Assembly (NCBI GenBank): GCA_009829735.1
Contig: CM020618.1
Span: 35,316,894-35,380,893, forward strand
Origin: Pyropia yezoensis
Lineage: Eukaryota; Rhodophyta; Bangiophyceae; Bangiales; Bangiaceae
Direction of reading: 5' to 3'
DNA: 64,000 nucleotides
The notes beneath the pieces were generated by a model that saw only the letters and a list, made by a program, of their open reading frames with translations, did not search any database and was not told the DNA's origin. The position numbers and the translations under genes were made by a program. Below are positions 33,337 to 53,933 of the stretch, piece after piece (the first letter of the stretch is position 1; every line of letters begins with the position of its first letter).

Positions 33337-35858
33337 TCAGAAGGGGTTACCCCCGCCAGCAGAAGGGGGCCAGTCACGCGTTGTCGCGTACACTTCCGTA
33401 CTCCAACGGTCGGCTATCTCACGCCGGTTGAGCGCCTGAGCTACCTCAGCGCTAAGATGCACCAGAGTGCTGTCACCAGCCTCCACAGCATCCAGAGCCA
33501 TCTGTAGGCGGTTGAGCACCCAACCGAGGCAACGCGCGGTACCGACCAGCGCAGCAGTTGGGGGGATGTCCCCCCAGCTAACCGGAGGCGCCTCCGTCAA
33601 CTCACGAGAGAGAAGGGCGTTAACGCCCTCATACCACAAGCGGGGACCCCCGTCGGGCATGACGGGAGCCGGCGATGCCACCGGAGGGACCGGAGCCACA
33701 GCCGGAGGAGTGGACACCGCCATCGCCGGAGACGGCGATAGATGGTAAGGAGCACGGTACGACCGTGAAGGAGGACCAGACTCCTGGGCAGAACGCCCAC
33801 CGGGAACCCGGTGGAACTCCCCACGACGACGATACGTCTCGCGGCCTCCACAAGTGGAGTCTTACTCACGGCGATGGCGACCCGTCCCCATAGGAGTCGG
33901 GTTACCGAACCGGGGGGTTCCCACCTGGAGAGAGTCGGGCAGAACCACGGGAATACCCAGGCCTGGTACCGACTCGGTGGATGCCCACCCCTGGTATCCA
34001 TCCTCACCCGAGATAACTCGGCGGATACGTAGCGAGTGACGAGGCAACGGGAGCGTTCCCGGTTGCGCGTCACGGAACGGCGGCAAGGTCGCCACCGCCG
34101 ACCAGTTCACGGCATCGTGAACGGCCACGAGCGCAGTCAGCTCACGGGTTAACCCCGTCCCAGTAGCAATGGCGTCAACGCCTAGCTCCCCAAGGTGCCG
34201 ACTGACACCCGTCGGAAGATGGAACAGTCGACCCTGTCGGCGGGCCGACAACAGGAAGGAAGAGACCTGCCCGAGGGTAACCTCGAGGGTGAAGACACCC
34301 TGCAGCAAATGCGTGGGCCGAGCGGCCAGCACACCGCCGAAGTAGCGCAGGCAAGGACCGGTGTCAAACCGGAAAGCCGGGGCGGGCTCCCACCCTCCTT
34401 GCCACCCAGGCGGGCGCAACAGAGTGTACACGGGAGCACGACCGTTACCGGTCTGCACGTGATATCCGTGCGGAATGGGTCCGCCATGACACCATGGTTT
34501 CGACGCCAGCTGGAAGCTGACTTCAAGCCACCCATGGTCGGGAAGGGCGGCGTCAGCCACAGATACGGGGGATCCCCCGGGTAGTAGTCCAAACCGGGAT
34601 ACCGGTTGGTACCGGGCACGAGCTGCCCAAAGGCCACAGGGGTCTGGGTAGGAGCCACCCCGCGGGCACCCGCAGGGTAATCCACCTCCCGCGGCAGCGC
34701 GGGGGCAACCAAGTCGCACACCCCAAAAGCGGGGTGCAGAGTAGCCTCAGGCCGCCCGACCCGGGCGCGCCAGAGTTGAGCATGCCGGTCGTCCGGCTGG
34801 CTGAGTACCCAATGATGCTCGACGCGAACCGCGTCAGGCTGGGCAACCAGCCGAGCCAGCTCCCGCTCCCAACAGGGGTCCAACGAAACCAGACGGGAGG
34901 TACCTCCACGACGGCCCGGCGGGTGGAAGTCCACCCGCATCCGACCGCCTCAGTCCATGGCTTCCTGCACCGTCAGGCTACGCACCCGAGCCACCAGCTC
35001 GGAGACCGACAACGGGGGGTGTCCCACCGCAGAGGCGGCACCGCCCCGCTCGGAAGCGGTACCGCCACCCGCAGAGGCGACGCCGCCACCGACCAGGCCG
35101 ACGTGGCCGCCCAACGGGGCAACCCGGGCCGGCCCAGGAAGAAGCGCCGGCGCCGGCGGAAGCCCAACGCGTAGGTGCACCGGCGCCGGAGCACGGGGAC
35201 GAGGAGGAAGAAGTAGGGCGGGCACCCGCCCGGAGTAGCTCCCGGTGTCAACCGCCATGGGGGAAGGAGCGTCTTGACCGCTCGACGCCCGCGGCACCGC
35301 GGGTAGGGTACCGGCGCCGGCACCACCCGTCGACGTCGCTCCCGCCTCGGAAGGGGAAGGCACTTGGACAGCCTCCGGAGCCGGAGCACCGGCCGTGCGG
35401 ACACCCGCACCGTCTTGACTCGCCGCACCGGGTGTCGCACCGCCACTACCACCCCCGTCAACGTCGGGATCGCCTTGAAGAATCCCCGTCCGGACACCCG
35501 GACCACCTTGCCCAGCCGGAGTCGGCCGGGAATCGCCACTTCCGCCGTAGGGCGGGCCATCTTGGGGTAGCTGCGGCGGGCCGGCATCGGCACCAGGCTC
35601 CATCCCGGTAGCCGGAAGGGAAGGGGTAGAGGCAGCCACGCGCGGTTGACCGGCGGGTTGACCCCCGACCGACGGCACCTTCGTGCCGCTGCACACGGAC
35701 GAAAGTCCTCCGGCCGACACACGGACGGACGCCACAGGCTCGTCGTCTTCCGACGAGCTCGCCCCGTAACGCGCGGCAGGACCGACAGGCGCGTCGTCCT
35801 CCATCTCTTCCCCAATCAGGAGGTCTTTCTCCTCCCCAAGCACCTGGGGATAGGACAT
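33337..35858 (-). CDS. Element A antisense ORF (aORF), interrupted
   Basis: Read on the strand opposite to gag-pol, from the ATG at 35858 (MSYPQVLGEEKDLLIGEEME) to TAA at 33337. The N terminus is acidic (SSSEDDEP), then Pro/Gly/Ala-rich to about codon 300. An in-frame TGA at 34952-34950 is shared with element B. The central domain follows: WRARVGRPEATLHP, LVPGTNRYPGLDYYPG, then VYTLLRPPGWQGGW, LLQGVFTLEVTLGQVSSFLL, GRLFHLPTGV, LTRELTALVAVHDAVNWS. A 7-bp loss relative to B near 34458 shifts the frame here. A TAA at 33864-33862 (inside a GTGAGTAAG splice-donor-like string) is followed in frame by a Ser/Pro/Arg linker and a helical C-terminal domain (LVGTARCLGWVLNRLQMALD, LVHLSAEVAQALNRREIADR). 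Homologous to the antisense frames of elements C and E. Function unknown; no membrane segment and no known domain. Confidence 0.7.
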
Positions 35859-36427
35859 GATAACGGGTGGCAGAGTCCCCCGCGCCCACAAGCCGTCGAC
35901 GGCTACGACCCGGTACGGTGTGACAACCGGGACGAGCCAGGGAAGCGCGGGCACCCGCGCTTATGACCACAAACAGCCACGAGAAGCGCCGCAAGTGCGC
36001 GGGTCAACCCGCGCCCCACGGGGCTATGAACGCGCTCCACCCAGGCACCTGGGCGGGCTGGGCCACACCCCCGTACGGGGCAACCACGAGGGGGTCACCC
36101 CGAACGCGCCCCCACGAAAAGCGGGCAGCGGCCGCCCCCATTCACTCGGTAACACGAGAGGGGCCCCCCTACCACCAGACGCCTGGTGGCGGATCCGCTT
36201 GCACCACCCCTCGGAAAGGGGGGTCGTGAACAGAAACCCGCATCGGGAATTTAACGGTCCGGAAAACGGATCGTGTGTGTACCACACAAAGGGGGGCACC
36301 CCCCTCAGACAACCCCGAAAAGGGGTGTCTGTCGCGACAGGGCGCAAAGCCCCACCCGACTGGTAAACGGTCACGCGACCCACTTACATTCGGTAACCCG
36401 AATGCAACTCGACCCGAGGACGGGCCG

Positions 36428-36444
36428 AATCTAAGGGGGGGATA
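36428..36444 (+). other. Polypurine tract of element A
   Basis: CTAAGGGGGGGATA lies directly left of the 3' LTR, the usual place for the plus-strand primer. Element B has the same tract as its complement at 41877-41890. Confidence 0.75.
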
Positions 36445-36807
36445 TGTAGCAATATGGTTAGCCGTATTGTGACCCTAATATTAGGGGGGCTACTTCAAAT
36501 CCTTGGCTTTCAATTTGATAGTCCGTACTGGTCACGGTATCTATAAGTTACGTATGACCAGAGGGACTTGCATCTTGGGGTGGAGGGTAGTTAGTAGTGT
36601 CTCCGAGGGTTTATAACGAGGGGGCCGGCGGCGAATCCACCGCCGGCCAAGGTAGAACAAAAAACCCCTCCCATTTGGGCTCCCATCTTGGTCCCGTGGC
36701 TTGCGCTCCAAGGACAGCAACCTTGGCCTCCCGGTGACGTTAGTGCCGATCCCCCTTGGTGAGTGTTCCCTGAGAGTGGACGTGCGACGGATTCCTATTG
36801 TGCTACA
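36445..36807 (+). repeat. Element A 3' LTR (363 bp)
   Basis: Same length as the left LTR and almost identical to it; AACAAAAAACCC replaces AACAACAAACCC. Followed by GGTCC, which does not match the CATAG left of the 5' LTR. Confidence 0.92.
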
Positions 36808-38177
36808 GGTCCGCGTGAATGATTTGACAAGCGGAATATGTACCAGTTTCGCCGACGGGCCATTTTGTGTTGACAGTTGTACGTGCAACGGGCCGCGCAA
36901 GCCGCGTTGCCAGTCAAATCGGCCGTCTGTTAGGGACATGGTGTAAGACCCGCTGCGCTGGCCCTCGCCAGCTGCGGCGCCCGGATGCAGCTGCGATGCT
37001 CGGCGCCTGGTCGCCTGCCTAGCGCTGCCGCCCTTCCCGCCCACGCCTCAGCTGCCACCGCCCTTTCCCCCAATGCCACAGCTGCCCGCCCCTGCCGCCC
37101 ATGCCGTTGCTGTCAACGTCCACAACGCTGGCGGAGGCTGCAGCAGCGGCGGCAGCCGCCACAGCTGCGTCACGTAATGCTACTCCCGCTGCGGCGGCGG
37201 CGGCACGGGCTGCGCTTGCCGCGTGGCGCGCCGACCCTCGGATGGGGATGGCGGCGGCGATTGAAACTATGCGGGGAGAGCTCCCCCCGGGGTCGCCGGC
37301 GGGCTCTCCCAGTGGCTTCCCTGCCGGACTCCCCCTGGACTCCCGGCTGGGCTTCCTGTCGGCTTCCCTGGGGGTTTCTGGACCGCCTCCCCAGGGGGCC
37401 GCCCGTGAGGCCTCCCGGCGGGTCCCTTCTCAGGCCTGGCAAGCCTTCCTGGCATGGCTGGCGGCGGCGGCGGCGGCGATGTCGGCGGCGGTGGCAGAGG
37501 TGGTGGTGGCAGAGGTGGTGGGCTCTGCGCCGGCATTGGCATTGGCGCGGGCGACCATGGCAGCGGTAGCGGGGACCTAGGGGACCCCATCGTGGTCGCT
37601 GACTATGTGCATCCTTCTGTGTCAGCCGATAGCGGGCTGGTGGCGTTTATGCACGGTGGGGGCGTGTGGGTAGCGGCGGCTGCTGGGGAGCGGCAGTTGA
37701 CTTTTTCAGGTGGCTGTGCCGGCTGTGGCGGCTGCTCGTGTGCGCTGCCCGGGGGGGGGGGGCGGGGGGGGGGGGGGGCTGCGGCCTGCGATTGCCTGGG
37801 CTTCCGCTTGGGTGGGGGCGGCGGAAGGAAGCGCGTCGCTGCCGGGGGGGGTCTCTGAATACGACATGGCAGAGGAATTTGAGCTGAAAGTGGGCTTTTG
37901 GGTGTCCCCTTCCGTCGGGAGGAGGGGAGAAACAGGAAGGTGGATGGCCGCGAGGGGTGGGCTCGGGGGATGGCGCAGCCACAGGCGACGCCCGTGCCGC
38001 CGACGGAAAACTACACTGGCGGGGATGGCAAAGCAGGGCAGGGGATCTGCGGTCGCGATGGGTGGGCGCGGCTCGGATGGGGGGGGGGGGGGGGGGGCGA
38101 CGCGTCAACAGCGGCACCGGCGCGGCTGGACAGACCGCACCGGTGGTGCGGGCGGGCGCCCCCCTCCCCAGAGGGAG
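36808..38177. other. Left part of the host island; one weak candidate gene
   Basis: GC rises again relative to the retroelement. Apart from the candidate at 37101-37580, only G-rich low complexity (poly-G at 37750-37777 and about 38080-38098) is seen. The island is bounded by LTRs on both sides. Confidence 0.5.
37101..37580 (+). CDS. Possible Ala-rich hypothetical protein, 159 aa
   Basis: From the ATG at 37101 (MPLLSTSTTLAEAAAAA) the frame reads Ala-rich helices with ordered pieces (ALAAWRADPRMGMAAAIETM, PSQAWQAFLAWL) and a Gly/Pro/Leu repeat in the middle (GSPAGSPSGFPAGLPLDS). It stops at TAG (37578-37580). There is no known domain. It could be compositional, but the Trp/Met content is above the local background. 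Confidence 0.3.
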   Translation: MPLLSTSTTLAEAAAAAAAATAASRNATPAAAAAARAALAAWRADPRMGMAAAIETMRGELPPGSPAGSPSGFPAGLPLDSRLGFLSASLGVSGPPPQGAAREASRRVPSQAWQAFLAWLAAAAAAMSAAVAEVVVAEVVGSAPALALARATMAAVAGT

Positions 38178-38222
38178 GAGGCGGCGCGCACGGTGGGATG
38201 GACGTATCGCCACACCGCGCGG
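38178..38222 (-). pseudogene. Short fragment homologous to the 38870 gene
   Basis: The minus strand encodes FRAVWRYVHPTVRAAS, matching LRAVWQDAHPTVRAAS of the intact gene at about 39310-39358, with DNA-level similarity over about 45 bp. The flanking frame diverges at once. It is a third, tiny inverted fragment of this family, adjacent to module copy 2. Confidence 0.6.
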
Positions 38223-38254
38223 AATCCCCGCTCGCGGGCGCATGCGGGGAGCCG

Positions 38255-38600
38255 TCCACGGCAAAGTCTTTCGCAGGCGCGGCTGGCCGGATCCCCACCC
38301 GGCTGGGTCGCCACATATGCATTATGCGTGCACCGGCCACCCGGGACGTGGCAGTCGGTGGAGGTGGAGGCGACGGACGTGGCAGTCGGTGGTGTCGACG
38401 GTAGTTGTATCAATGAACATTACAGCAGTCCTTTCTTCAATGATTGTCAAGTCTCGTTACTGTAGGACGGATCGTGAGAGGAGGGCGTGGGGGGGTGGGC
38501 GTGGGGGTATTCCCGTCAACACGAACAACACTAGCAACACGAGCACCACGTCCGACACGTGCAGCGCCGGCGCGGGCCACTCAAATTGGACTTGAAATCA
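38255..38600 (+). repeat. Dispersed module, copy 2, upstream of the 38870 gene
   Basis: Plus-strand counterpart of the minus-strand module at 24260-24575, sharing several exact blocks including CATATGCATTATGCGTGCAC. It contains a local duplication of GACGTGGCAGTCGGTGG. It ends about 270 bp before the ATG at 38870. Confidence 0.7.
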
Positions 38601-38869
38601 CTCCAAGTCCCGAGTCCATATTTGACCAAGCCTGGCCGTCAGAGCACAGCCACCGTCCTGAGCCGCGTCACGCACGAGTGTCGGCGCCGTTTTTCTCGTA
38701 CTCGCCCGGACCCGGCCCTCCCCCCGCCACCCTCCTCACCCACCCACCGACGCCCCGCCTTGCCCCCCGTCCCCCTCCTCGCCGCCGACGACTCTTCCTG
38801 GCAACCGGACGGCAACCACCCGTGCGACAAGCTGTCGAGAGCAGTAGCCCCCCGGAGAACGTTGCCGTC

Positions 38870-39655
38870 ATGCCGGGGCATGCGGCGCACAGCCTTCGTG
38901 GTGGGGCAGCTCACTTTGCTGTCGAGGTGTTTGTAGACTACTTGCGCTTTTTTGGCTTTCTCACGGGTGCCCCCTGCGCCGCCGCCTCCCGTATCAGCGA
39001 GGTCGCCGCGGCAATGTGTCACGGCGGAATGGCCCTAGCAGCAGTGCCCGTGGCTGTCCAGTGGGAAAACTCGTACTGTGTCGCTGCCCGTGCGAGTGTC
39101 GGGCGCCCTCCGGCTCGGGAGCCGCCGGTGGCCTGCGAGCACGTTCCCACGGCCTTGCTCATTGCGTGTCGTGCTGTCTGTCTGCGGCTGCAGAGTTGCG
39201 GCCTGGCTGCGGACACAGCGGAAGCCGACCAAGAGCCCGTGCGGCTGATCTACTCTCTGATGGCGTTCAACGAGGCTGAGGGGCTGTCCGTCGCCATTGC
39301 CGAGCTGGCCCTCCGCGCGGTGTGGCAGGACGCCCATCCTACCGTGCGCGCCGCTTCGTTCGATTCCGTCGCAGACGTTGCGTCCATGCGGCGTTGCGTG
39401 GACGCGGCAGTGGCTCCCACAGGCACGGGCACGGGTGCACGGCCGTCTGCTGTTTGTATTCCGGCTGACCTAGCCGTTGCCAGTAAGTATCCGGACATGC
39501 ACCTCGTCTTTGGAGCTGGCACCACCGCGACAGCGGCCGCTGCCACGGGAGTGGCTACAGGGCAGCACGTAGAGGGTGCGGCGGTCCCGGAAGCCACCCC
39601 GCCGTCCCGTCGCCGGAGTCTGCGCCTGGCCATGCGCAAAACACGGGGGCGATAG
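38870..39655 (+). CDS. Unrecognised protein, 261 aa; intact member of a local gene pair
   Basis: The start is the ATG at 38870 (MPGHAAHSLRGGAAHF); the upstream open frame is Pro/Arg-rich and lacks an ATG. Residues 15-190 look like an all-helical domain: FVDYLRFFGFLTG, ISEVAAAMCHGGMALAAVPV, PTALLIACRAVCLRLQSCGL, PVRLIYSLMAFNEAEGLSVA, IAELALRAVWQDAHP. The tail is basic (RRRSLRLAMRKTRGR). A paralog on the minus strand at 40361-41018 conserves these helices, so the protein is real and was under selection. The helix pattern is loosely reminiscent of a cyclin box, but no cyclin signature residues are clear, so I leave it unnamed. The upstream module is shared with the 23473-24147 gene. Confidence 0.65.
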   Translation: MPGHAAHSLRGGAAHFAVEVFVDYLRFFGFLTGAPCAAASRISEVAAAMCHGGMALAAVPVAVQWENSYCVAARASVGRPPAREPPVACEHVPTALLIACRAVCLRLQSCGLAADTAEADQEPVRLIYSLMAFNEAEGLSVAIAELALRAVWQDAHPTVRAASFDSVADVASMRRCVDAAVAPTGTGTGARPSAVCIPADLAVASKYPDMHLVFGAGTTATAAAATGVATGQHVEGAAVPEATPPSRRRSLRLAMRKTRGR

Positions 39656-39900
39656 TGGAAGAGAGGGTCGAATAGACCTCTGGGGTGGGGGGGGGGGGGG
39701 GAGGGCGATTTCCCATGTCCTACCACTCAGAGCCGCTTTTTCGGGTGTGGAACGCCTCTGTGCCAACACGTGACAACGTTATCTGTACATGGTGAAGGAT
39801 GTGGGCGGGTTGAAGGCGTGTCTTGTCTTGGGTAGATCATTTCCATGCTTCCAGCCGCCGTTTTCTCTTGGTCATTTCCTAGGCCGACCGCGCGTCGGCG
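39656..39900. other. Short intergenic spacer
   Basis: A 13-base G run lies near 39687-39699. No gene is seen. It separates the 38870 gene from the candidate at 39901. Confidence 0.4.
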
Positions 39901-41018: not shown

Positions 41019-41394
41019 GGTCACGACAAGTACCGCCCGCCCACCGCGCAGGGACAGTGCACACAGGGAAGGGTACGAGGGACAGGGGACGAGGCTACAA
41101 TGCCAAGAGGGATAATCCAGCAGGATGATCGCGTCCGTCGTCTCGCCTTGCACCCTGTTGGCATGCCAGTCGCCGGTCGACTCTTTCGCCAAGAATTCAT
41201 CCATTCAGAGCCACGTCAGAGTTTGTATTCCCATTGGCTGAATAGAGCACCGGACTGGCAGTCGGCTCACCAATCCCAGCCGCAGTCTCAGTGGCCCAAT
41301 TTTGCTCAGAGGGTGCTTGTAGCCTGACCGCGGACGACTACTTGCTGCACCATTCTACATGGCCGTCCCGCGCTCGCCCTGTTGCCGCCTATGT
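41019..41394. other. Host sequence next to the LTR remnant; no gene
   Basis: No coding pattern is seen. It ends with CTATG (41390-41394), the complement of CATAG found left of element A. Confidence 0.5.
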
Positions 41395-41513
41395 GTAGCA
41401 CAATACGCAACACCACGAGTACAAGAAAAGGACCGGATCCCTATCCGTGTGCCAGGGCCGAAGACGGCGTCACCACAAGGGTGACGGAAACCCGTCCCCT
41501 GCTGCTCCACCAA
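41395..41513 (-). mobile_element. LTR-end plus leader remnant of the A family
   Basis: On the minus strand the LTR at 41876-41514 is followed by the primer-binding site and about 105 bp of element A leader (match to 26285-26393). It then jumps to TATTGTGCTACA, the last 12 bp of an LTR (41406-41395), then CATAG. This is what remains of an LTR-leader-LTR unit with almost everything deleted. Confidence 0.75.
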
Positions 41514-41876
41514 TGTAGCACAATAGGAATCCGTCGCACGTCCACTCTCAGGGAACACTCACCAAGGGGGATCGGCACCAACGTCACCGGGAGGCCAAGG
41601 TTGCTGTCCTTGGAGCCCAAGCCACGGGACCAAGATGGGAGCCCAAATGGGAGGGGTTTGTTGTTCTACGTTGGCTGGCGGTGGATTCGCCGCCGGCCCC
41701 CTCGTTATAAACCCTCGGAGACACTACTAACTACCCTCCACCCCAAGATGCAAGTCCCTCTGGTCATACGTAACTTATAGATACCGTGACCAGTACGGAC
41801 TATCAAATTGAAAGCCAAGGATTTGAAGTAGCCCCCCTAATATTAGGGTCACAATACGGCTAACCATATTGCTACA
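41514..41876 (-). repeat. Element B 3' LTR (363 bp)
   Basis: Complement of the element A LTR, same length, with a few substitutions. The polypurine tract complement TATCCCCCCCTTAG starts right after it at 41877. Confidence 0.9.
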
Positions 41877-42462
41877 TATCCCCCCCTTAGATTCGGCCCG
41901 TCCTCGGGTCGAGTTGCATTCGGGTTACCGAATGTAAGTGGGTCGCGTGACCGTTTACCAGTCGGGTGGGGCTTTGCGCCCTGTCGCGACAGACACCCCT
42001 TTTCGGGGTTGTCTGAGGGGGGTGCCCCCCTTTGTGTGGTACACACACGATCCGTTTTCCGGACCGTTAAATTCCCGATGCGGGTTTCTGTTCACGACCC
42101 CCCTTTCCGAGGGGTGGTGCAAGCGGATCCGCCACCAGGCGTCTGGTGGTAGGGGGGCCCCTCTCGTGTTACCGAGTGAATGGGGGCGGCCGCTGCCCGC
42201 TTTTCGTGGGGGCGCGTTCGGGGTGACCCCCTCGTGGTTGCCCCGTACGGGGGTGTGGCCCAGCCCGCCCAGGTGCCTGGGTGGAGCGCGTTCATAGCCC
42301 CGTGGGGCGCGGGTTGACCCGCGCACTTGCGGCGCTTCTCGTGGCTGTTTGTGGTCATAAGCGCGGGTGCCCGCGCTTCCCTGGCTCGTCCCGGTTGTCA
42401 CACCGTACCGGGTCGTAGCCGTCGACGGCTTGTGGGCGCGGGGGACTCTGCCACCCGTTATC

Positions 42463-44424
42463 ATGTCCTATCCCCAGGTGCTTGGGGAGGAGAAAGACCT
42501 CCTGATTGGGGAAGAGATGGAGGACGACGCGCCTGTCGGTCCTGCCGCGCGTTACGGGGCGAGCTCGTCGGAAGACGACGAGCCTGTGGCGTCCGTCCGT
42601 GTGTCGGCCGGAGGACTTTCGTCCGTGTGCAGCGGCACGAAGGTGCCGTCGGTCGGGGGTCAACCCGCCGGTCAACCGCGCGTGGCTGCCTCTACCCCTT
42701 CCCTTCCAGCTACCCGGATGGAGCCTGGTGCTGATGCCGGCCCGCCGCAGCTACCCCAAGATGGCCCGCCCTACGGCGGAAGTGGCGATTCCCGGCCGAC
42801 TCCGGCTGGGCAAGGTGGTCCGGGTGTCCGGACGGGGATTCTTCAAGGCGATCCCGACGTTGACGGGGGTGGTAGTGGCGGTGCGACACCCGGTGCGGCG
42901 AGTCAAGACGGTGCGGGTGTCCGCACGGCCGGTGCTCCGGCTCCGGAGGCTGTCCAAGTGCCTTCCCCTTCCGAGGCGGGAGCGACGTCGACGGGTGGTG
43001 CCGGCGCCGGTACCCTACCCGCGGTGCCGCGGGCGTCGAGCGGTCAAGACGCTCCTTCCCCCATGGCGGTTGACACCGGGAGCTACTCCGGGCGGGTGCC
43101 CGCCCTACTTCTTCCTCCTCGTCCCCGTGCTCCGGCGCCGGTGCACCTACCCGTTGGGCTTCCGCCGGCGCCGGCGCTTCTTCCTGGGCCGGCCCGGGTT
43201 GCCCCGTTGGGCGGCCACGTCGGCCTGGTCGGTGGCGGCGTCGCCTCTGCGGGTGGCGGTACCGCTTCCGAGCGGGGCGGTGCCGCCTCTGCGGTGGGAC
43301 ACCCCCCGTTGTCGGTCTCCGAGCTGGTGGCTCGGGTGCGTAGCCTGACGGTGCAGGAAGCCATGGACTGAGGCGGTCGGATGCGGGTGGACTTCCACCC
43401 GCCGGGCCGTCGTGGAGGTACCTCCCGTCTGGTTTCGTTGGACCCCTGTTGGGAGCGGGAGCTGGCTCGGCTGGTTGCCCAGCCTGACGCGGTTCGCGTC
43501 GAGCATCATTGGGTACTCAGCCAGCCGGACGACCGGCATGCTCAACTCTGGCGCGCCCGGGTCGGGCGGCCTGAGGCTACTCTGCACCCCGCTTTTGGGG
43601 TGTGCGACTTGGTTGCCCCCGCGCTGCCGCGGGAGGTGGATTACCCTGCGGGTGCCCGCGGGGTGGCTCCTACCCAGACCCCTGTGGCCTTCGGGCAGCT
43701 CGTGCCTGGTACCAACCGGTATCCCGGTTTGGACTACTACCCGGGGGATCCCCCGTATCTGTGGCTGACGCCGCCCTTCCCGACCATGGGTGGCTTGAAG
43801 TCAGCTTCCAGCTGGCGTCGAAACCATGGTGTCATGGCGGACCCATTCCGCACGGATATAACGTGCGCGTTGCAGACCGGTAACGGTCGTGCTCCCGTGT
43901 ACACTCTGTTGCGCCCGCCTGGGTGGCAAGGAGGGTGGGAGCCCGCCCCGGCTTTCCGGTTTGACACCGGTCCTTGCCTGCGCTACTTCGGCGGTGTGCT
44001 GGCCGCTCGGCCCACGCATTTGCTGCAGGGTGTCTTCACCCTCGAGGTTACCCTCGGGCAGGTCTCTTCCTTCCTGTTGTTGGCCCGCCGACAGGGTCGA
44101 CTGTTCCATCTTCCGACGGGTGTCAGTCGGCACCTTGGGGAGCTAGGCGTTGACGCCATTGCTACTGGGACGGGGTTAAACCGTGAGCTGACTGCACTCG
44201 TGGCCGTTCACGATGCCGTGAACTGGTCGGCGGTGGCGACCTTGCCGCCGTTCCGTGACGCGCAACCGGGAACGCTCCCGTTGCCTCGTCACTCGCTACG
44301 TATCCGCCGAGTTATCTCGGGTGAGGATGGATACCAGGGGTGGGCATCCACCGAGTCGGTACCAGGCCTGGGTATTCCCGTGGTTCTGCCCGACCCTCTC
44401 CAGGTGGGAACTGGCTCTACTTAG
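42463..44424 (+). CDS. Element B antisense ORF (aORF), one TGA, C terminus deleted
   Basis: Same protein as the element A antisense frame: ATG at 42463 (MSYPQVLGEEKDLL), acidic then Pro/Gly/Ala-rich part, TGA at 43369-43371 at the same place as in A, then the central domain in one unbroken frame (B lacks the 7-bp loss seen in A). After LQVGT the sequence jumps to the hairpin-repeat region. This deletes about 0.9 kb that in A encodes the linker and C-terminal domain, and the frame ends at a TAG at 44422-44424. Confidence 0.7.
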
Positions 44425-44856: not shown

Positions 44857-45324
44857 TGTGGCAGTATTGACCCCCAGGTAGGGGGCAACACGTGCCATGC
44901 AAGGGGCGGCAGGCCACTAGCCTGATCCGTTCCTCCCCCTGCATTTGGGTCCATATTCCCTAAGTTCGGGATAGTTAGCTTAGTAGTAAATCCAACTTGG
45001 ATTTGAGGGTTTTCTGCATTTATCGTCTTGAATTTTCGTGTGGCCCGGTGGGCAGGTGCTGGGGTGGGAGATTCTGAGTGGCGAGATTCTGAGTGGACCC
45101 TGGGGGGATAAGGGGAGGGACAGCGGGGCTTGGCCCTGCGTCCCCGTCCCGACCAAGAAACTGTTGGACCACACACCATCTTCTTGTTTGTCCGTGGGGG
45201 GATTGCCCCACAACAGGGATAGAGTGTGTGCGACTTGCACTTCTTCCGGTTCCCCCGACACGGGAGGCAGCCCTCGCACACCGCCCCAACTTGGGTACTG
45301 TGTGTGCAAGTGGTTTTTGCCACA
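44857..45324 (+). repeat. Element E 5' LTR (468 bp)
   Basis: Begins TGTGGCAGTATTG and ends TTTTTGCCACA. Contains a short direct repeat GAGATTCTGAGTGG at about 45069-45098. Confidence 0.92.
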
Positions 45325-46020
45325 TTTGGTGGAGCAGCAGGGGACAGAGGTAAACTTTACCTCCGGGTGCACCCGGGTGTAGGGGGCCCTCTGTCTCAGA
45401 GGAACGGTGGTCTTGGACTGTGTCGTGTGGATCGTTAGCCAACACGGCTGAATCGGACCTCCCGACGTTCGGGAAACTCTCCGGTGACGACTTTACCCCG
45501 GCGCCTTTGAATACTGGCCAGACACAGGGTGTACCTGGGGTCGCGGAGGTGCTAGAGGCACTCCAGCCAGCAGGGCCGTGGGTATCGGTGCGGGCGGTAT
45601 GCCACCCCGACCCAGTCGGGTGTTCACCCTGAGGGTCTTTCTCGGACCGGTGGTTCGCACTTCGGCCACCGGGTGGTACACTCAAAGGGAACGTCCCAAG
45701 GTGAGAGGACTGTCCCCGCGAGATCCACTCGGGTTGGATTCAACTTCGGCATAGAGCCGTCGCCAACTAGGCGGGTGGAAGACGGCGGACCTTCACTCGT
45801 CGGTGATGGGCTCGAGCCTGTGACAGGGGTCGTAGCAAGTTGCTACCCCCGCCACCCTCAAAGAAAGTATCTTTGATCGGGAGCCAAGTTCGGCTATATC
45901 GACCAACATGAGGGACCGGTAGTAGCGGCCACCCTCAACGCGGGCGCGAGTAGCGACCCGAGGTCCGGAAAGGAGAAGCACCAAGCCAAGTCGGCCGCCT
46001 CTCCTCGTCCCCATGTGAAC
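45325..46020 (+). other. Element E leader, no gag
   Basis: Starts with the primer-binding site. The sequence where gag would be has no zinc knuckle and no long frame. Contains a short hairpin-like GGTAAACTTTACC at about 45348. Confidence 0.6.
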
Positions 46021-47010
46021 ATGGAGGGTGTTCCACCCAGGTTGAGGGTTCAAGTTGAACGCCTCTTGGACCAATATCACAAGTTGTGGGATGGTCAATT
46101 GGGACTCATGAGAGCCACCCAACACCGGATCGAGTTGAAACCCGGTGTACCCCCTATACGCCAACAACCGTATAGGGGAGGGCCCCGTTCAAGGGCCCTC
46201 GTCAAGGAGCGCTTCAACAAAACTATTGTTAGGCAGCTGCGCCACTATGTGAGTGAGCTTGTGAAAACGTGGGACCAATACATTTCTATTCTTACCACTG
46301 CCTACAATTCGCAGGTTCACTCATCTACCGGGGAAGTACCCCTCGCTTTTGTGACCCCCCGTCGCGTGCGGTCTATTGCTGTGCGGCGGTCGCTCCCAAC
46401 TAGGGAGGATGATGGCAGCACGCCTACTCCTACTGAGAGTAAGGCGGAGTTCGCTGCTAGGCTTGAACACCTCATCCCTAAAGTCAGGGCTGAGATGGAC
46501 AAAGCACAAAAGCGCTACAAGCGTACCTTTGACAAAAAGGTGCGCAATGCTAAACATGTCCCCGAGCAGGGTGACTGGGTGCTGGTACACTTGCACACCC
46601 CAACTGGGGGTAAGCTGGTATTCCAGACGAAGGGACCGTACCAGGTCCTTCGTACTGATGGGCGGCGTTTCACCATCGAAAGTAACGATGGGGTCCGCAC
46701 AGTGAACGGACAGGACGTGGTCAAAGTTGCACCACCGTCTGCAGGCGACCCAGCTTGGGCGCGTGCTTTGAAAACGTGGCGCCTGCCCTCGCTGCCTGCA
46801 GCCAAACAGGGCCCGCAGGAGTACGTGTTCGACAAGTTCATCGACCACGGCTGGGATGAAGATACTGACCGCCTCATGTTGAGGGTGCGTTGGTTTGGCT
46901 ACAAAGCCAAGGATGATACGTGGGAGTATGTGGAGGACCTTCCTGCTGAGAAGGTCCGGGCGTACTGTGCCCGGAACGAGATAGACCCTAACAGCCCTCC
47001 CTCAACGTGA
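46021..47010 (+). CDS. Element E fused pol remnant: pre-RT joined to integrase tail and chromodomain, 329 aa
   Basis: From the ATG at 46021 the first 60 residues match the segment just before the RT domain of chromoviruses (LLDQYHKLWDGQLGLMRATQ, QHRIELKPGVPPIRQQPYRG). The frame then passes directly into the post-catalytic part of integrase (RFNKTIVRQLRHYVSELVKT, WDQYISILTTAYNSQVHSS), the GPY motif (QTKGPYQVL), and a chromodomain (EYVFDKFIDHGWDEDTDR, LRVRWFGYKAKDDTWEYVEDLP). RT, RNase H and the integrase catalytic core are gone, but the frame is preserved across the join near 46205. Ends in TGA at 47008-47010. A product could still bind chromatin through the chromodomain; that is inference. 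Confidence 0.85.
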   Translation: MEGVPPRLRVQVERLLDQYHKLWDGQLGLMRATQHRIELKPGVPPIRQQPYRGGPRSRALVKERFNKTIVRQLRHYVSELVKTWDQYISILTTAYNSQVHSSTGEVPLAFVTPRRVRSIAVRRSLPTREDDGSTPTPTESKAEFAARLEHLIPKVRAEMDKAQKRYKRTFDKKVRNAKHVPEQGDWVLVHLHTPTGGKLVFQTKGPYQVLRTDGRRFTIESNDGVRTVNGQDVVKVAPPSAGDPAWARALKTWRLPSLPAAKQGPQEYVFDKFIDHGWDEDTDRLMLRVRWFGYKAKDDTWEYVEDLPAEKVRAYCARNEIDPNSPPST

Positions 47011-47121
47011 GGGAAGGCCGAGCAACAGTGCCAAGAGAGTGCTTCAAGTCGAAGTGGTACGCAGAGTGGCTTTAAACTACAGCCCTAACCCTCACACTCT
47101 CACAACAAAGGCAGCTGCCAA

Positions 47122-49065
47122 CTAGGCACGCATGCTAGACTCTCCCACTCCACGGCCCTCGCCCTCACGTGGAGGCGAGCGGCGAGACCCACGCCGATAA
47201 CGGTCTCCACTCGTTGGAAGGGGCGGCGGCTCCAAGTCGGAACCGTCGCGCCCCTCACGGTCGCGCAAGTGGCGCCGACCGTGGCTACTCTTCTGCCTGG
47301 TCTTGCGCGCAAGTTTGCGACGCAGACGCTGGACAGACTCCGTCTCCGATGGGGTAGAGGACTCCGAGACGGAGTAAGACAACTCGTCTTCCGACACGGA
47401 GGGAGAGCGCCGCGAGTGACGGCGACGACGGCGAGGAGGCGAGTATGCCCGGCTCGCACGACGCTTGCCACGCCCAAGTGGGGTTGGCTGGGGCATAATA
47501 GCCCCAATGCGAGCCAACTCGGCCGTCATAAACTCCGCCACCGACTCGCAACTCGCGGTCGCCACTGCAGTACGAACGCGCTCCTCAAGTTGAGGAGTCT
47601 CGGAACTTTGGAGGGTTGCGGTCGACGCGGCCAACCAGGAAATGGTGCGCACCAACGTGGTGATCATCATCTCTGAGGTTAGAGGCGTGGGCGGTAACAC
47701 CAACTTGGGGTATACCGTCAGGAGGGTGGCCCCCAAGTTGGGAGACACCGGTGTGGATGACTCCACGGCCACGCTGATCGGGATGTTCCCGTGAGGCTGG
47801 AAAGGAACAGGAGGAAGCGGAGGGGCACGCCGAGGTGGCGGTACCCGGGTGTAACTGCGACCCCGACTTGGGGCCCCCGCAGTAGGTTGAGTCATATGGT
47901 CATCATATGAGGGCACAGCCATAACTATGGGCTTGTCCGGGGGTGGCGCAGTGTGACGATCCACCCCCGGGGCATACGGGTAGTCCCCGATGCCCAACCC
48001 CTCTCGTAGGACCACACGGCCGTCGTGAAGTTCACGAGCGACCCACACGAACTGGCGAAGTGCGCCATCGTCCTTGGGCCCCCGAGTGGGGCGGCGCAAC
48101 TTGTGCTCAATGCTCTCCCACTCGATAAACTTGTGGAGGCGGAGCATCTCCTCAAGTAGAGTGAGTTGTCCTGACGAGCACCCCTCAGCAACTAGCTGAG
48201 GGGTGAGCTGTTCCAAACCCTGGATGAGCCGGAGGGGGAGATGCCAGAGCATCCCCCGCCGCTGAACACATGACACCCAGGTCGACATGACCTCGAGGAG
48301 CCACTGGGTGGCCAACATGGCCCACACCAGATGATCAGGGCCAGCCGTCAACATGACGGAGCCGAAGTGGTCAAGCAACCGTGGCAACAATGCCGGGAAC
48401 CCGTAGGGAACCTCAACTTGAGGCCACCACTCGGGCTTCTTCGGGTAGTATTGCTCCTTACTGGCAGCAGACTGCTGAGGAAACTCAAGTTGAGCCGAGG
48501 TCACCAAGTAGGGACCTCGCCGGAAGTCCTTCTCCATCCGCACATCAAAGTGATGAGTGTGCGGATCGGCCTCGTGAAGGTACGGGGGGCGAGTTGCCAC
48601 CGCGTCCCAAGTGAAGGTCGGCAAGTCGCCGGGACCCGGGATAGTTCCCCCGCGGTCCACCATGGCCTTGGCCCGCTGCACGTCCTCGACCTCCTCGTCG
48701 TCCAGGAAGGCAAACTGGTCCGTCCTGAAGCCGGCAGGGAACCCGACCCTACGGGGATACTTCTCCCGTAGGCGGTCCCATACCCGACCCATCGCTGCGC
48801 CGAGTCGGCCACAGCGAAGAACAGTCAACCCCTCCTCACACAGAGGCCAAGCGGGGTAAAACCACCGCCCCAAGGCCTCACGCGGGACAACTTGTCCCGC
48901 CTCCGGGGGAGATCCTGCCGTCAACCCAAAGCCGGGTGACGCGGGAGTCCCACCCCCCGGAGCGATCGCGGAGCCCCCGCCGGAAGTCCCGGCAGGTGCT
49001 GCACCGTAGGAGGTGTCCTCCATACGCTCATCGAGAGAGTCCGTCTCCACTCCCGGAGTCGCCAT
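47122..49065 (-). CDS. Element E antisense ORF (aORF), intact, 647 aa
   Basis: From the ATG at 49065 (MATPGVETDSLDERMEDTS) to TAG at 47122, on the strand opposite to pol. Layout: acidic/Gly-rich N terminus; ordered region from about residue 65 (GRWFYPAWPLCEEGLTVLRC); central domain about 190-370 (EQYYPKKPEWWPQVEVPYGF, DHLVWAMLATQWLLEVM, MLWHLPLRLIQGLEQL, LTLLEEMLRLHKFIEWESIE, LRQFVWVAREL); Pro-rich linker (GAPSRGRSYTRVPPPRR); helical domain (MMITTLVRTISWLAAST, VAEFMTAELARIGAI); Arg/Ser-rich tail (RRRRRHSRRSPSVSEDEL). Central and helical domains align with the antisense frames of C and A. The start is 342 bp from the 3' LTR. No sense-strand frame of comparable length exists here, so it is not a shadow of pol. 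Function unknown. Confidence 0.8.
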   Translation of the reverse strand: MATPGVETDSLDERMEDTSYGAAPAGTSGGGSAIAPGGGTPASPGFGLTAGSPPEAGQVVPREALGRWFYPAWPLCEEGLTVLRCGRLGAAMGRVWDRLREKYPRRVGFPAGFRTDQFAFLDDEEVEDVQRAKAMVDRGGTIPGPGDLPTFTWDAVATRPPYLHEADPHTHHFDVRMEKDFRRGPYLVTSAQLEFPQQSAASKEQYYPKKPEWWPQVEVPYGFPALLPRLLDHFGSVMLTAGPDHLVWAMLATQWLLEVMSTWVSCVQRRGMLWHLPLRLIQGLEQLTPQLVAEGCSSGQLTLLEEMLRLHKFIEWESIEHKLRRPTRGPKDDGALRQFVWVARELHDGRVVLREGLGIGDYPYAPGVDRHTAPPPDKPIVMAVPSYDDHMTQPTAGAPSRGRSYTRVPPPRRAPPLPPVPFQPHGNIPISVAVESSTPVSPNLGATLLTVYPKLVLPPTPLTSEMMITTLVRTISWLAASTATLQSSETPQLEERVRTAVATASCESVAEFMTAELARIGAIMPQPTPLGRGKRRASRAYSPPRRRRRHSRRSPSVSEDELSYSVSESSTPSETESVQRLRRKLARKTRQKSSHGRRHLRDREGRDGSDLEPPPLPTSGDRYRRGSRRSPPREGEGRGVGESSMRA

Positions 49066-49406
49066 GGCTCTCCCCAAGTTGGGGAGAGACGTCCTGGCTA
49101 TCGCGGCACGAGACCCGCCTCGAGTTGAGGGGGACTCGGATCGTGGGTAAACGGGTGGCCTCCCCAGCGTGGGGTGGCCCCGTGTAAGGTGAAGGAGAAG
49201 TGGTGGTGGTGGTGAGGTGTGAACCGAGGAGAGCAAGCTGCCAAGTGGGCAAGCTTGAGGAGAGGGGCGGCCAACGTGACCGCCTCCACATCCGCGTTAC
49301 GTACTCAAGGGGGGACAGCAAGTCGCGTCCCCCCCAACGCCGAGACGTGCGTTTACGCACCCCCTCACAGGGCCGACCGGGTCGGTCGGAACTGAGGAGA
49401 GGGGAG

Positions 49407-49874
49407 TGTGGCAGTATTGACCCCCAGGTAGGGGGCAACACGTGCCATGCAAGGGGCGGCAGGCCACTAGCCTGATCCGTTCCTCCCCCTGCATTTGGGT
49501 CCATATTCCCTAAGTTCGGGATAGTTAGCTTAGTAGTAAATCCAACTTGGATTTGAGGGTTTTCTGCATTTATCGTCTTGAATTTTCGTGTGGCCCGGTG
49601 GGCAGGTGCTGGGGTGGGAGATTCTGAGTGGCGAGATTCTGAGTGGACCCTGGGGGGATAAGGGGAGGGACAGCGGGGCTTGGCCCTGCGTCCCCGTCCC
49701 GACCAAGAAACTGTTGGACCACACACCATCTTCTTGTTTGTCCGTGGGGGGATTGCCCCACAACAGGGATAGAGTGTGTGCGACTTGCACTTCTTCCGGT
49801 TCCCCCGACACGGGAGGCAGCCCTCGCACACCGCCCCAACTTGGGTACTGTGTGTGCAAGTGGTTTTTGCCACA
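49407..49874 (+). repeat. Element E 3' LTR (468 bp)
   Basis: No difference from the 5' LTR noticed on reading. Followed by the GTTGG target duplication. Confidence 0.92.
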
Positions 49875-51060
49875 GTTGGATCTCCGTATCGGAGTGTAAG
49901 ATAACAGAGTGGTCATCTCTGTGGAGAATCTGGTACGGTCCCTTGACCGGTTGCATGAGCTTGTTCCCCCGGAGCTTCTGGTGTCTGATGTAGACCCAGT
50001 CACCAGTCATCAGGGTAGCGTTGCGCACCCGTAGTCGGGCGTCGAAGTTCCTCTTATAACGAAGTTGTGTTCTGTCAAGGGCACCCTTGAGCTTAGGAAT
50101 CATCCACGATAGCTTGGCCAACCAAGCTAGGTGGATGCGTTCGGCCGGTCGGCCCTTCGGTGTATCATACCGAGTGCACCTGCCGGGTGGCAGCGTCAGG
50201 TTACCGACGCCTAGTGGCATGACCCATTCTAGAGGGGCTATGTTCGTGCTCCGATGTGGCCTGGCATTGTATGCCAGGGTGAGTACGGACAGGAGCCTGT
50301 CCCAAGTGTTCGTGTGCTCGGCCACGTAGCACTGTAGCATCTTGACGATGGTGCGGTTGAACCGCTCCACCTGTCTGTTGGTCTGCGGGTGGTAGTCGGA
50401 TGCCCGACGTGGTTCGATCCCGAACATGCCCATGACCTTGGTGCAGAATGCCGACGTCAGGTTTGCTCCGTTGTCGGAGAGGAGTTGCTTCATGACTCCG
50501 TATGCACCGATCCAGTGGTCAACCACTGCGTTCATGATCGTGTATGCCGTATCATTCGGGATGGCTGCCGCTCGTGACAGCTTAGTGAATCGGTCAGACA
50601 TGACCAGGATGTACCTGTTCCCTTCTTCCGTTACCGGAAGTGGCCCGAGTATGTCGATAGCGACTTGCTCGTTGGGCCCATCAGGTGGGAATAGCTTCAT
50701 GGCAGACGCCTGCCTATGTAGACTCATGCGGTTACGTGCACAGGGGTGGCATCCCCTTACGTGGTCGACCACGTCGACGGCCATTGCTGGCCAGTTGAAG
50801 AACTTTCGCATTGCTGCGAACATACGTGAACCCCCCGGGTGTCCGGCTGTAGGGTTCTCGTGTTCTCGTTCCATGACGGCTTGCCGTAAGGACACGGGTA
50901 CCACGACTTGATGTCGTCCATCGGCGGGTGCCCGCCGGTATATGAGGCCGTCTTCGTTCTCGGAGAAGATGCCGGCCGTACCGGCCAGGAGGTTAGCGCG
51001 ATGGCGTCTACAGTCGTCGTCATTGGATTGTGCCTCGCGGAAGTCCGCGAGAGTCAGTGG
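49875..51060 (-). CDS. pol: Element B pol, middle segment (integrase)
   Basis: Minus-strand continuation of element B pol: PLTLADFREAQSNDDDCRRH at the right edge, then the zinc-binding HENPTAGHPGG...GCHPCARN, catalytic AIDILGPL, LLSDNGANL and ERFNRTI, and GPYQIL near the left edge, ending at the GTTGG where E inserted. The frame is open throughout. AGTGG at 51056-51060 is the duplicated target of element C. Confidence 0.88.
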
Positions 51061-51631
51061 TGTGGTATAAAACTCGATCCTTTAGACACGTGTCAATATC
51101 CCTCGGGGGAAAGGGACAGGTAACGCAGAAAGGGGAACTACGAGAATGGTATGCCTGTTGCCTCACGTGCCTGCTCGCAGAGCAAACAGATACGCACGGT
51201 AGTGCACACGGGGAAGAGGAAAGCAAACGCGCAGTTGTCTTTTTCCCTGAGGGCGCGGGCCGAGGGCGCCTCGCTGTCCCTCTTAACGTGCATCTGGGGG
51301 AACCCCGGCACGTTGGCCCGGTAGCCCCCCCATAACCCCGAGTGGCCCCGACCCGAGTCTAACCTCGTCAGGTCGGGGGCCACTATCACTACTAATTCTA
51401 TTCCCACTCACTAATCTCACACTCAAATTCTCTCAAATCAAGTCCCTCACAAATATGCAAAAACACATCAGAAATCCCTCTCTCGCGTGTGGATAGCGTA
51501 GTCCACCGCATCCCAGTGCCGGGCACGGGCCACGGCCGCCAACCATCGCCACACGGCGGGCGTGTTCTGGCACCTGGTGCCCTCTGGTTGCAGTCCCGGG
51601 TCGGCGCCAAGTCGGGGCCAGGGATGCTACA
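51061..51631 (-). repeat. Element C 3' LTR (571 bp)
   Basis: Plus strand begins TGTGGTATAAAACTCGATCC and ends GGGATGCTACA. Differs from the 5' LTR by a one-base length change near position 20 and a few substitutions near 51415-51440. Confidence 0.92.
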
Positions 51632-51815
51632 TAGCTCCCTCCCTAGTCCGGCACGTCCTCGGGCCGAACCAGGTGCCACCGTGCACAGCCTCGAGCACGT
51701 CCACACCGGTGCCGAGGTCGAGCGTCTTCACCCCGGTCACGATCACCTGCCCCGATTCTGCCCCCCCCCTCCGCTCCTTCACCTTGGCCCTCTCGTTCCC
51801 CGGAGTCTGGACGGT

Positions 51816-53933
51816 ATGTCCAGTTCCGAGATCCAAGCTGGGCCCGTGGTTCCGGCGGCGAGTGTTGCGGAGGAGAACTCGGGTAGTCGTGCCCCTCTCC
51901 TGCCTCCGGTTCCTCGGATGTCGGTGCCGGCGCCGGTCGCCACGGCGGGGACGGATCGAGTTCCCCCGGCTTTCGCGATGCACCCGGTCGAGGCCCCCCC
52001 GGAGGGTCTCCCGGAGATGCTTCTTGGGCAGGACCCTCTGGCGGCCCGGCGTTACTCCACGGTGGTCGGCAACGCCGGCGCGGCCCAGTGCCAGCAGGAT
52101 TGCATGGACCTCTGGCGCAAGGAACTCCAGCGCGGGGTCTTGACCGAGATGGACAAGGCACGTCTTCATACGGCGGACCAGATGCGCCTGGCACAAGACC
52201 GCTCCCAGAGCTTCTCGGGTTCCTCTTGGGTTGCTCGTCTGGAGGATCTCCCCTTCGCACTGGTACTGGATCTACCCTTGACCGAGCGTCGCGTGTCCGC
52301 GTCCGTTCTCCGGTGGCCGGAGGAGGAAGGGTACGTCCACCGGGCGCTCAAGGTCTGGGACGAGGCGCTCAAGGGGTCGGGAAGCTTGAACTGCGACCCC
52401 CGTCCGAGCATGGTCGCTCTGGAGCCGCCTTTCTTGACCCGGAAATACTCCAAGTTGTCGCCGGCACGGGAGCAGGGTGAGCGACGCGGGCGTCAGCGTG
52501 ACTTCCTTGTGAGCTGCAACCACCAGGAGTTCTGGAAGCTGGACAAGGCTAACCGGGCGGCATACTACCCCAAGGTCATCCCGCAGCAGCAGGAAGTCGA
52601 GATCCCGGTCGGGTTTGCTCCTTCCAGCATCCTTTGCACCTGGTACTTCTTGGACGCCTTGACTCAGGCGTCGATCAAGGGCTTCTTTTACTCAATCCCG
52701 TACATGATGTACACGTCCGAGATGACAGTCTTGGCGGCCAACCACTGGCTTCACGAGGTCTTGGTGTCCAACCGGCTTTGGTTTCTCCCCGACCTCCTGA
52801 TGGTCTGGATTGTCGACAAGTTGACCGTCGACTTCCTGTGCAGCGAGGACGAGGAGTACAATGAGCTCTTCCAGGCGATGATCGACTTCCGGCGTCTGGT
52901 ACCGGTGCATGACCGGAACTTCTTGAACGCGATTGCCGACCAGAACCGCCCGCGTCGGGATGGCTTCGGTTGGGCGCAGGTGGTCTACCAGTCTTCTCCG
53001 GCTAAGGTGCAGCTGGCGACGCTGCTTCCGGCGTGGCCGCAGCTAGGTAGCTTTCCTGCTCCGGCCGCCCTTGATCTTCTGCCAGTTGGGCCGCCGGTGC
53101 AGGAGTCGGGATGGGCCGCGGCGGTCGGTCGGGCGTCTGCGGCGGCTCCGCTTCCTCCTGTTGCCCCTGTCGCCCCGATCGCCTCGCCTGAACCGTCACC
53201 GGCGCGTCCGCGCCCTGTTCCGGCTGTGCCGGTACTTCAAGCTTCTCCGGCACCGCGCTTGTCTGCGGCGAGTCTGGGAGTGGCCGGGCGGTCGCCTACC
53301 ACTCCGGCCGCTCTGCCTCGGACGCCTTCTTCCAACGCCGGCGGCGCTGTGCCTCCGCTGGAGTTGGGTACTCCGGTCTCGGGGGCCGTTGTGGACCGTC
53401 CGGTAGTGTCATCCTCGGGCCGGTTCGAGATTCCGGCGCCGACTCTGCGCCTTACCCGCTTCCGGGTGCCTGACTGGTACCTGAACCAAGGTGGTCCAAC
53501 ATGCGACCAGTACGACGTCGGCATGATTGAAGACCAGCTGGGTCGTCTTCCGGTGCAGGTTGAAGGCGTCGGGTCTTCTCTGGTGCTGGGTACTTACGCC
53601 AGCGTCTTGAACAACGTGGTCGACCGGGTGTTTGCTTGCGCAGATAGTGGTCAGATGTCGAACAGCCCGGTGGTTGGCGAACTTCTGGCGACTTTGACGC
53701 GGCATGGCTTGGCCCAGCAGTGGTCAGAGACCTTCACGGGCTTCCAGCGGCGCCGACGGACATATCTGGATGAGCGGGAGCCACCGGCAACTACTGGTAC
53801 TACTCCGATGGCGTCATACCGGGATGCGCCGCGTCCACCGCACTACGTCATCCCGTCTTCCTCCGGTTCCCGTCGTACCGCGGAGGCAGCGCCGGAGGAC
53901 ACTCCCTCGGCTCAGCGTCCGCGCCGGGAGTAG
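51816..53933 (+). CDS. Element C antisense ORF (aORF), intact, 705 aa
   Basis: From the ATG at 51816 (MSSSEIQAGPVVPAASV) to TAG at 53931-53933, opposite to gag-pol. The open frame extends left into the LTR but without a better ATG. Layout: Pro/Ala-rich N terminus; ordered region from about residue 60; central domain about 230-400 (LDKANRAAYYPK, EVEIPVGFAPSSIL, MTVLAANHWLHEVLVSNRLW, FLPDLLMVWIVDKLTVDFL, FQAMIDFRRLVPVHD, FGWAQVVYQ); long Pro/Ala linker; C-terminal domain (FRVPDWYLNQGGPTCDQYD, YASVLNNVVDRVFACADSG, VVGELLATLTRHGLAQQWSE); short basic end. The same order is found in E and A. The start lies 185 bp from the 3' LTR, which could supply an antisense promoter. It ends 145 bp from the end of pol, so the two are convergent. 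Function unknown. Confidence 0.8.
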   Translation: MSSSEIQAGPVVPAASVAEENSGSRAPLLPPVPRMSVPAPVATAGTDRVPPAFAMHPVEAPPEGLPEMLLGQDPLAARRYSTVVGNAGAAQCQQDCMDLWRKELQRGVLTEMDKARLHTADQMRLAQDRSQSFSGSSWVARLEDLPFALVLDLPLTERRVSASVLRWPEEEGYVHRALKVWDEALKGSGSLNCDPRPSMVALEPPFLTRKYSKLSPAREQGERRGRQRDFLVSCNHQEFWKLDKANRAAYYPKVIPQQQEVEIPVGFAPSSILCTWYFLDALTQASIKGFFYSIPYMMYTSEMTVLAANHWLHEVLVSNRLWFLPDLLMVWIVDKLTVDFLCSEDEEYNELFQAMIDFRRLVPVHDRNFLNAIADQNRPRRDGFGWAQVVYQSSPAKVQLATLLPAWPQLGSFPAPAALDLLPVGPPVQESGWAAAVGRASAAAPLPPVAPVAPIASPEPSPARPRPVPAVPVLQASPAPRLSAASLGVAGRSPTTPAALPRTPSSNAGGAVPPLELGTPVSGAVVDRPVVSSSGRFEIPAPTLRLTRFRVPDWYLNQGGPTCDQYDVGMIEDQLGRLPVQVEGVGSSLVLGTYASVLNNVVDRVFACADSGQMSNSPVVGELLATLTRHGLAQQWSETFTGFQRRRRTYLDEREPPATTGTTPMASYRDAPRPPHYVIPSSSGSRRTAEAAPEDTPSAQRPRRE

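Follow-up and report, generated by a model that had tools for sequence, protein, structure and literature searches.

A candidate antisense accessory gene between pol and the 3' long terminal repeat of three Ty3/gypsy families in the red alga Pyropia yezoensis

The retrotransposons in a 64,000-nucleotide stretch of the Pyropia yezoensis genome (GenBank assembly GCA_009829735.1, contig CM020618.1, positions 35,316,894 to 35,380,893), referred to here in its entirety as the window, carry a gene on the strand opposite to gag-pol. The gene is a protein-coding frame with a central domain that is homologous across three Ty3/gypsy families, and its place and orientation agree in all three. The favoured interpretation, to which a rough probability of 0.45 is given, is that of an antisense accessory gene of red-algal Ty3/gypsy elements that may, by analogy with known systems, serve as a nuclear regulator acting in trans. 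The elements that carry it probably bear a chromodomain.

The antisense gene is present in elements A and B, which belong to one family, and in elements C and E (Table 1). In A, C and E the antisense open reading frame (ORF) is found between pol and the 3' long terminal repeat (LTR), on the opposite strand and convergent with pol. The convergent 3' ends are separated by 111 bp in C, 145 bp in E and 642 bp in A, and the antisense ATG lies 184-586 bp from the LTR. An earlier sequence-only reading of the window had described a long frame in this position; the layout stands for A, C and E and the frame is intact in C and E, while those of the A/B family are broken. The A and B frames, which start at 35858 and 42463, have an in-frame TGA in common (34950-34952 in A, 43369-43371 in B). 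A TAA (33862-33864) further interrupts the frame of A, which is also shifted by a small deletion relative to B, and that of B has lost 904 bp relative to A. Profile matches to the A gene fall at 34185-34949, 33865-34746, 34953-35960 and 33340-33861. An Env-like 3' ORF was considered and rejected, because an ORF of that kind has to be in sense orientation.

Sequence comparison supports a single homologous protein family, encoded antisense in three element families and recognisable in protein where the nucleotide sequences are not. What is shared is the central domain, some 165 residues long and only about 23-27% identical among the three families. BLASTP matched the C and E antisense proteins at an expect value of 1e-7, and tblastn with the C protein found B (4e-7), A (1e-5) and E (5e-5). 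In a comparison of all six frames of C with all six of E, B and A, and likewise of E with B and A, matches below an expect value of 0.01 paired antisense frames with antisense frames only (C-E 1.4e-6, C-B 9.9e-9, C-A 4.8e-7); E-B and E-A gave no match below this value. The homology that the sequence-only reading had proposed is thus borne out for the central domain, by this frame test and by the profile tests below. Profile matches among the three proteins, whose absence would have counted against it, are uneven: hhalign joins A/B to C (probability 90, expect value 1.6e-6), links C to E weakly when taken by itself (probability 27, 7e-4) and gives nothing directly between A/B and E (probability 1.6, 0.03). 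Window-shuffle tests follow the same order, with p values of 3e-8 for C-B, 5e-4 for C-E and 0.58 for E-B, and no direct pairwise homology between A/B and E was found by either method.

Element E is tied to the family through C, because the direct A/B-E comparison is negative and profiles that contain C match E. A profile of the A/B and C core matched the E protein at 1.9e-7, as compared with 0.45 for the best unrelated ORF of the window and 1.4 for the best of 300 shuffled E sequences; a profile of C alone matched E at 0.0027, and with a profile of A/B alone E was not among the best 25 matches. The targets of this test were 902 ORFs of the window and 302 E-derived sequences, and three database relatives (P0004, P0015 and P0017) were left out of the profiles. 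The motif HWLHEVL is found in E and QWLLEVM in C, the reverse of the earlier labels, and neither is found in B.

That the frames are open merely by chance, opposite GC-rich sequence, is a vanishingly unlikely explanation. The window is indeed GC-rich (G+C 0.59-0.64 around the C and E antisense ORFs) and 83 ORFs of at least 200 amino acids overlap it, but the frame-specific homology refutes this explanation, as do the profile test, the database relatives and a test of ORF length. In the latter, first-order Markov simulations of each region (2000 each) produced no frame as long as the real one for either C or E, the longest being 383 and 474 codons. Codon-position G+C in the antisense frame is 0.667/0.549/0.690 in C and 0.681/0.518/0.738 in E, with a low second position like that of pol.

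The nucleotide sequences themselves have diverged, as had been noted earlier: LTRs of the three families have shared words of at most 10-15 bases, and nucleotide similarity between antisense ORFs of different families is marginal (best expect value 0.003). This bears on a further explanation, that the antisense RNA is the useful product, as a promoter or through double-stranded RNA control of the sense transcript, and that the open frame is secondary. The convergent layout could yield overlapping transcripts, a possibility discussed in the available text of PMC7264820, but it is the amino-acid sequence that has remained recognisable where the nucleotide sequence has not, and this explanation appears very improbable.

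Database searches recovered 15 related proteins in total (P0003-P0017). Full-length searches with C and E returned one 97% copy apiece: P0003, a copy of C over 576 residues, and P0004, a copy of E over 583 residues. Other relatives were presumably missed by these searches because low-complexity words filled the candidate lists, and masking the flanks recovered them. The masked search yielded 14 proteins at an expect value of at most 1, the weakest at 9.3e-31 (7993 candidates scored), comprising eight A/B-like proteins, six C-like proteins (including the 97% copy of C) and no E-like protein. The alignments built from the 15 matches covered seven of the eight A/B-like ones (A3, without P0015), all six C-like ones (A4), 14 of the 15 (A6, without P0017) and, for the core, seven of the 15 (P0004-P0009 and P0011). 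Six of the eight A/B-like relatives were compared with B, and each is 62-75% identical to it; P0006 and P0005 reach 74-75%, and P0007, a 661-residue protein that represents a cluster of 19 sequences, is 66% identical over 334 residues. The C-terminal piece of A is 63% identical to that of P0006 over 161 residues. In P0005 the frame runs on through the site of the shared TGA, matching the A frame before it (63%, 245 residues) and the B frame after it (75%, 304 residues); thus A and B are broken copies of a gene that is open in relatives. Three of the A/B-like relatives are hypothetical proteins of Pyropia vietnamensis (Bangiales), whose gene models include MMPV_009242, MMPV_008948 and MMPV_001347. 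The sequence-only reading knew of nothing alike in an alga, and this agrees with the open-licence literature, where no such gene was found, although these three unannotated relatives already stand in the public Pyropia vietnamensis annotation. No tblastn-confirmed relative was found in viral contigs by three pattern scans (0, 1 and 26 matches) or in prokaryotic genome contigs (183 pattern matches), both searches possibly having excluded records near the genome of the window. PHROGs gave no credible match (best 0.19).

Comparison of A with B reveals a mosaic history. Over 28798-31391 the two copies show 122 differences in 2594 sites, 47 of which lie within one 400-base stretch; there are 26 in the 1186 sites of the integrase stretch and only 16 in 2891 between A 33917-36807 and B 41514-44411, which hold the antisense gene and the 3' LTR. 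Divergence thus falls from 4.7% in protease, reverse transcriptase (RT) and RNase H to 0.55% across this 3' part, and recent recombination is the simplest reading of it. The ratio of non-synonymous to synonymous substitution rates (dN/dS) between A and B is 0.26 for pol (2253 nt without indels) and 0.135 for integrase, indicating divergence under constraint. Three in-frame TGA codons are common to A and B (in A at 31054-31056, 32692-32694 and 34950-34952), one of which aligns to a Trp in E; they may reflect either UGA readthrough in the A/B family or stops spread by recombination.

A 3' module that looks recently exchanged may move between copies, and this, together with the broken state of two of the four copies, would suit the capture, once, of one or more host genes that spread among elements by recombination and are now passengers of little benefit. 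The domains, however, are so dissimilar among families (about 23-27% identity) that the association of element and gene must be old. Neither a known domain nor a host-gene relative was found in the protein searches, and the 661-residue open frame of P0007, at 66% identity to B, would be hard to retain without selection. A captured passenger is therefore considered improbable.

Element C is strongly reduced. Its open sense ORF joins a pre-RT stretch in frame to the end of integrase and a chromodomain-like stretch, and it matches E at 43% over 89 residues and at 42% over 264 residues. Only these two stretches of the C interior are matched by the gag and pol proteins of A and E (best other expect value 0.06); therefore C has lost gag, protease, RT, RNase H and the integrase core. 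The sequence-only reading had set the C frame opposite gag-pol, but a full gag-pol is absent from C, which is internally deleted and retains pol ends only. Its 5' and 3' LTRs are 99.8% identical and its target duplication is clean, from which it follows that C has probably transposed in recent times by means of enzymes supplied by other elements. Only one complete gene, the antisense ORF, was recognised in C, and its intact state fits selection for the protein, but also a deletion that was recent. A wider proposal would make the antisense gene an obligate, trans-acting component of every red-algal chromovirus family, passed between copies as part of a 3' module, as the mosaic of A and B suggests, and C a satellite on the gag-pol of others that, with the antisense gene as its only complete one, still makes a (perhaps anti-silencing) accessory protein. 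This proposal is rather unlikely.

If the gene acts as a nuclear regulator, a separate antisense mRNA would start within the 3' LTR or a short way inward of it and end between the convergent genes. Its protein would be a trans-acting and most likely nuclear regulator, of chromatin or nucleic-acid-binding type, that would tune element expression or blunt host silencing. Such a regulator would fit the protein because of its N terminus, which is acidic in A and in two of the relatives, its mostly helical core, as suggested by low-confidence models, its Pro-rich linker and the basic patches in its C-terminal part (residues 534-590 in C and 645-648 in E). Alternatively, the protein may work in the particle or the cytoplasm, in RNA binding, packaging or movement. 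The basic tail of C is Arg/Ser-rich, and C retains the ORF without gag-pol, as would be expected if the protein were useful for trans-mobilisation; on the other hand, Pfam scans detected no RNA-binding domain, and hhalign showed no relation to the Gag proteins of the elements (expect values 0.57 and 0.047, probabilities 0.1 and 1.1). A role in particle or cytoplasm is considered unlikely. The same hhalign probabilities leave a Gag-derived origin of the antisense protein, which was also considered, unsupported.

Several observations weigh against an accessory gene for a nuclear regulator. The nuclear role is argued from composition and analogy, because a match to a known domain is absent: Pfam gave no credible match for any of the 17 family members (best expect value 0.014, in a single member) and a PDB sequence search gave none, while AlphaFold models of C and of the central part of B reached a mean predicted local distance difference test (pLDDT) score of 33 and 40, too poor to use. 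The acidic N terminus that had been attributed to the whole family is clear only in A, P0005 and P0017, with net charges over the first 50 residues of -9, -16 and -10; it is not clear in C (-5) and not seen in E (-1), and P0007 has +2 with a gene model that starts further in than the others. A matching C-terminal domain, also proposed earlier, was not found, as the C-terminal parts exhibit no detectable similarity between families (p 0.31 for A-E, 0.87 for A-C, 0.64 for E-C); that of A does match the C terminus of P0007 (p 6e-8). Two of the four copies in the window are broken, and the A-B differences in the antisense gene (six synonymous, five non-synonymous) are too few for dN/dS. The five C-like relatives besides P0003 are fragments of 143-209 residues, 64-72% identical to C. 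The only E-like relative found is P0004, which the masked search did not return even with E in the query, and the list of relatives from that search is therefore incomplete. Finally, the database relatives are open by construction of the record and many are short, so that some may be broken copies.

LTR retrotransposons are stacked in the right half of the window, where B is split by two inserted elements, C and E (Table 1). Orientation was read from purine tracts beside the 3' LTRs, from LTR ends (A, C and E), from pol frames and, for C and E, from target duplications. The order protease-RT-RNase H-integrase that is typical of Ty3/gypsy is found in A and E, the protease match of A being under the curated cut-off; A has Pfam matches to RVT_1, RT_RNaseH, Integrase_H2C2 and rve, and its gag and pol are interrupted by stops. 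Pfam Chromo matches C at 4e-4 and E at 3.2e-4, both under the curated cut-off, and a comparison of these two chromodomain-like ends gave a match of about 1e-14. No such stretch was found in A by tblastn using C or E; by eye only, 32694-32870 of A reads as chromodomain-like, past the pol stop and in the same frame. Target duplications of 5 bp flank C and E, and none was found for A.

Table 1. Elements, genes and domains discussed in the text (positions in the window).
Feature	Position	Strand	Remarks
Element A, Ty3/gypsy	25922..36807	+	LTRs 25922-26284 and 36445-36807; LTR pair identity 99.7%
Element A antisense gene, broken copy	33337..35858	-	ATG 35858; TGA 34950-34952; TAA 33862-33864; frameshift near 34457
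Element B, second copy of the A family	pieces between 41406 and 63753	-	
Element B antisense gene, broken copy	42463..44424	+	TGA 43369-43371; 904-bp deletion at 44411/44412
Central conserved domain in B	43741..44235	+	tblastn to C 4e-7
Element C, internally deleted Ty3/gypsy, nested in B	44857..49874	+	LTRs 44857-45324 and 49407-49874; target duplication GTTGG
C sense ORF, open	45877..47010	+	pre-RT stretch fused in frame to integrase end and chromodomain-like stretch
C antisense ORF, intact, 647 aa	47122..49065	-	
Central conserved domain in C	48109..48600	-	residues about 156-319
Element E, Ty3/gypsy, nested in B	51061..61159	-	LTRs 51061-51631 and about 60588-61159; target duplication AGTGG
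E antisense ORF, intact, 705 aa	51816..53933	+	
Central conserved domain in E	52410..52901	+	residues about 199-362
E pol: RT end, RNase H, integrase, chromodomain-like end	54079..57042	-	Pfam
E gag ORF	58618..60552	-	27% identity to A gag, 216 aa, 6e-16

Other features of the stack were observed in passing. The RT of E is split across two frames at 57043-57310, where one ORF ends at 57311 and another begins at 57042. Despite its intact antisense ORF, this copy of E is thus probably defective; its pol also contains a run of 500 N (55496-55995), presumably an assembly gap. A sequence resembling a primer-binding site is identical in C (45325-45350) and E (near 60588), directly after the 5' LTR. 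At 41406-41514 the LTR of B is followed by 108 bp like the A sequence just inside the A 5' LTR, as if one LTR were common to two elements, and at 63751-64000 a plus-oriented LTR of the A family stands head to head against the truncated, minus-oriented B pol. Elsewhere in the window, a 795-residue ORF at 14601-16988 has a DDE_Tnp_1_7 domain (Pfam name Transposase IS4, 4e-37) and is, we assume, of piggyBac type, and an ORF at 9751-11508 with a Glyco_transf_90 domain (2e-27) is possibly a host gene.

Genes of this kind are already known; the protein family and its setting in what is probably a group of red-algal chromoviruses were not found in the open-licence literature. As described in the available text of PMC7264820 and PMC11963269, Grande gene23, RIRE2, Retand ORF4 (TRP28, PF04195) and PvRetro13 ORF2 are aORF-3R genes, which are present in most copies of a family and have an unknown function. 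The same sources describe Grande GENE23 as nuclear, with an antisense promoter of its own, and report a predicted DNA-binding domain in the Retand antisense protein; a regulatory role, likened to that of retroviral HBZ of HTLV-1 (human T-cell leukaemia virus type 1), has been proposed for both. Like the plant genes, those of A, C and E are antisense and situated between pol and the 3' LTR; unlike them, they are hosted by a red alga and PF04195 was not detected in the 17 members. Moreover, Retand is described as a non-chromovirus in the part of PMC11963269 that was available, whereas a chromodomain-like stretch closes the pol of C and of E. HBZ and APH-2 of HTLV, antisense genes of an LTR element with nuclear products (PMC11963269, available text), are likened by analogy only. 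The antisense ORF of Boty (Botrytis cinerea/Sclerotinia) is comparable by layout, and the extra ORFs common to different retroelement types among LTR elements of bdelloid rotifers (PMC5408684, available text) are comparable by description.

Actual homology with the Retand antisense proteins, implying a very old antisense gene, would be compatible with the like place and strand and with the fact that relatives outside elements are not known. In an hmmscan of the 17 members at expect values up to 10, however, PF04195 was not among the four families listed for any of them, within the limits of HMMER filters that hide very weak matches, and the available text of PMC11963269 reports TRP28 from flowering plants only. 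The spacing of conserved TRP28 positions given there was compared by eye with that of the central domain; the fit is only partial and is given no weight here. Such homology is very unlikely, and the descent of the red-algal and plant TRP28 antisense genes from one ancient gene, a bolder extension of the wider proposal on red-algal chromoviruses, is less likely than that proposal.

Antisense 3' genes of Ty3/gypsy elements have been described for land plants and fungi (Boty), with unknown function. The presence in a red alga of a separate family with matching place and orientation suggests that an antisense accessory gene arose, or has been kept, well outside land plants. The Pyropia gene models flagged here may be retrotransposon genes and not host genes. 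The conserved domain and element C, a natural minimal element composed of LTRs, a pol stub and one intact antisense ORF, provide material for tests of function.

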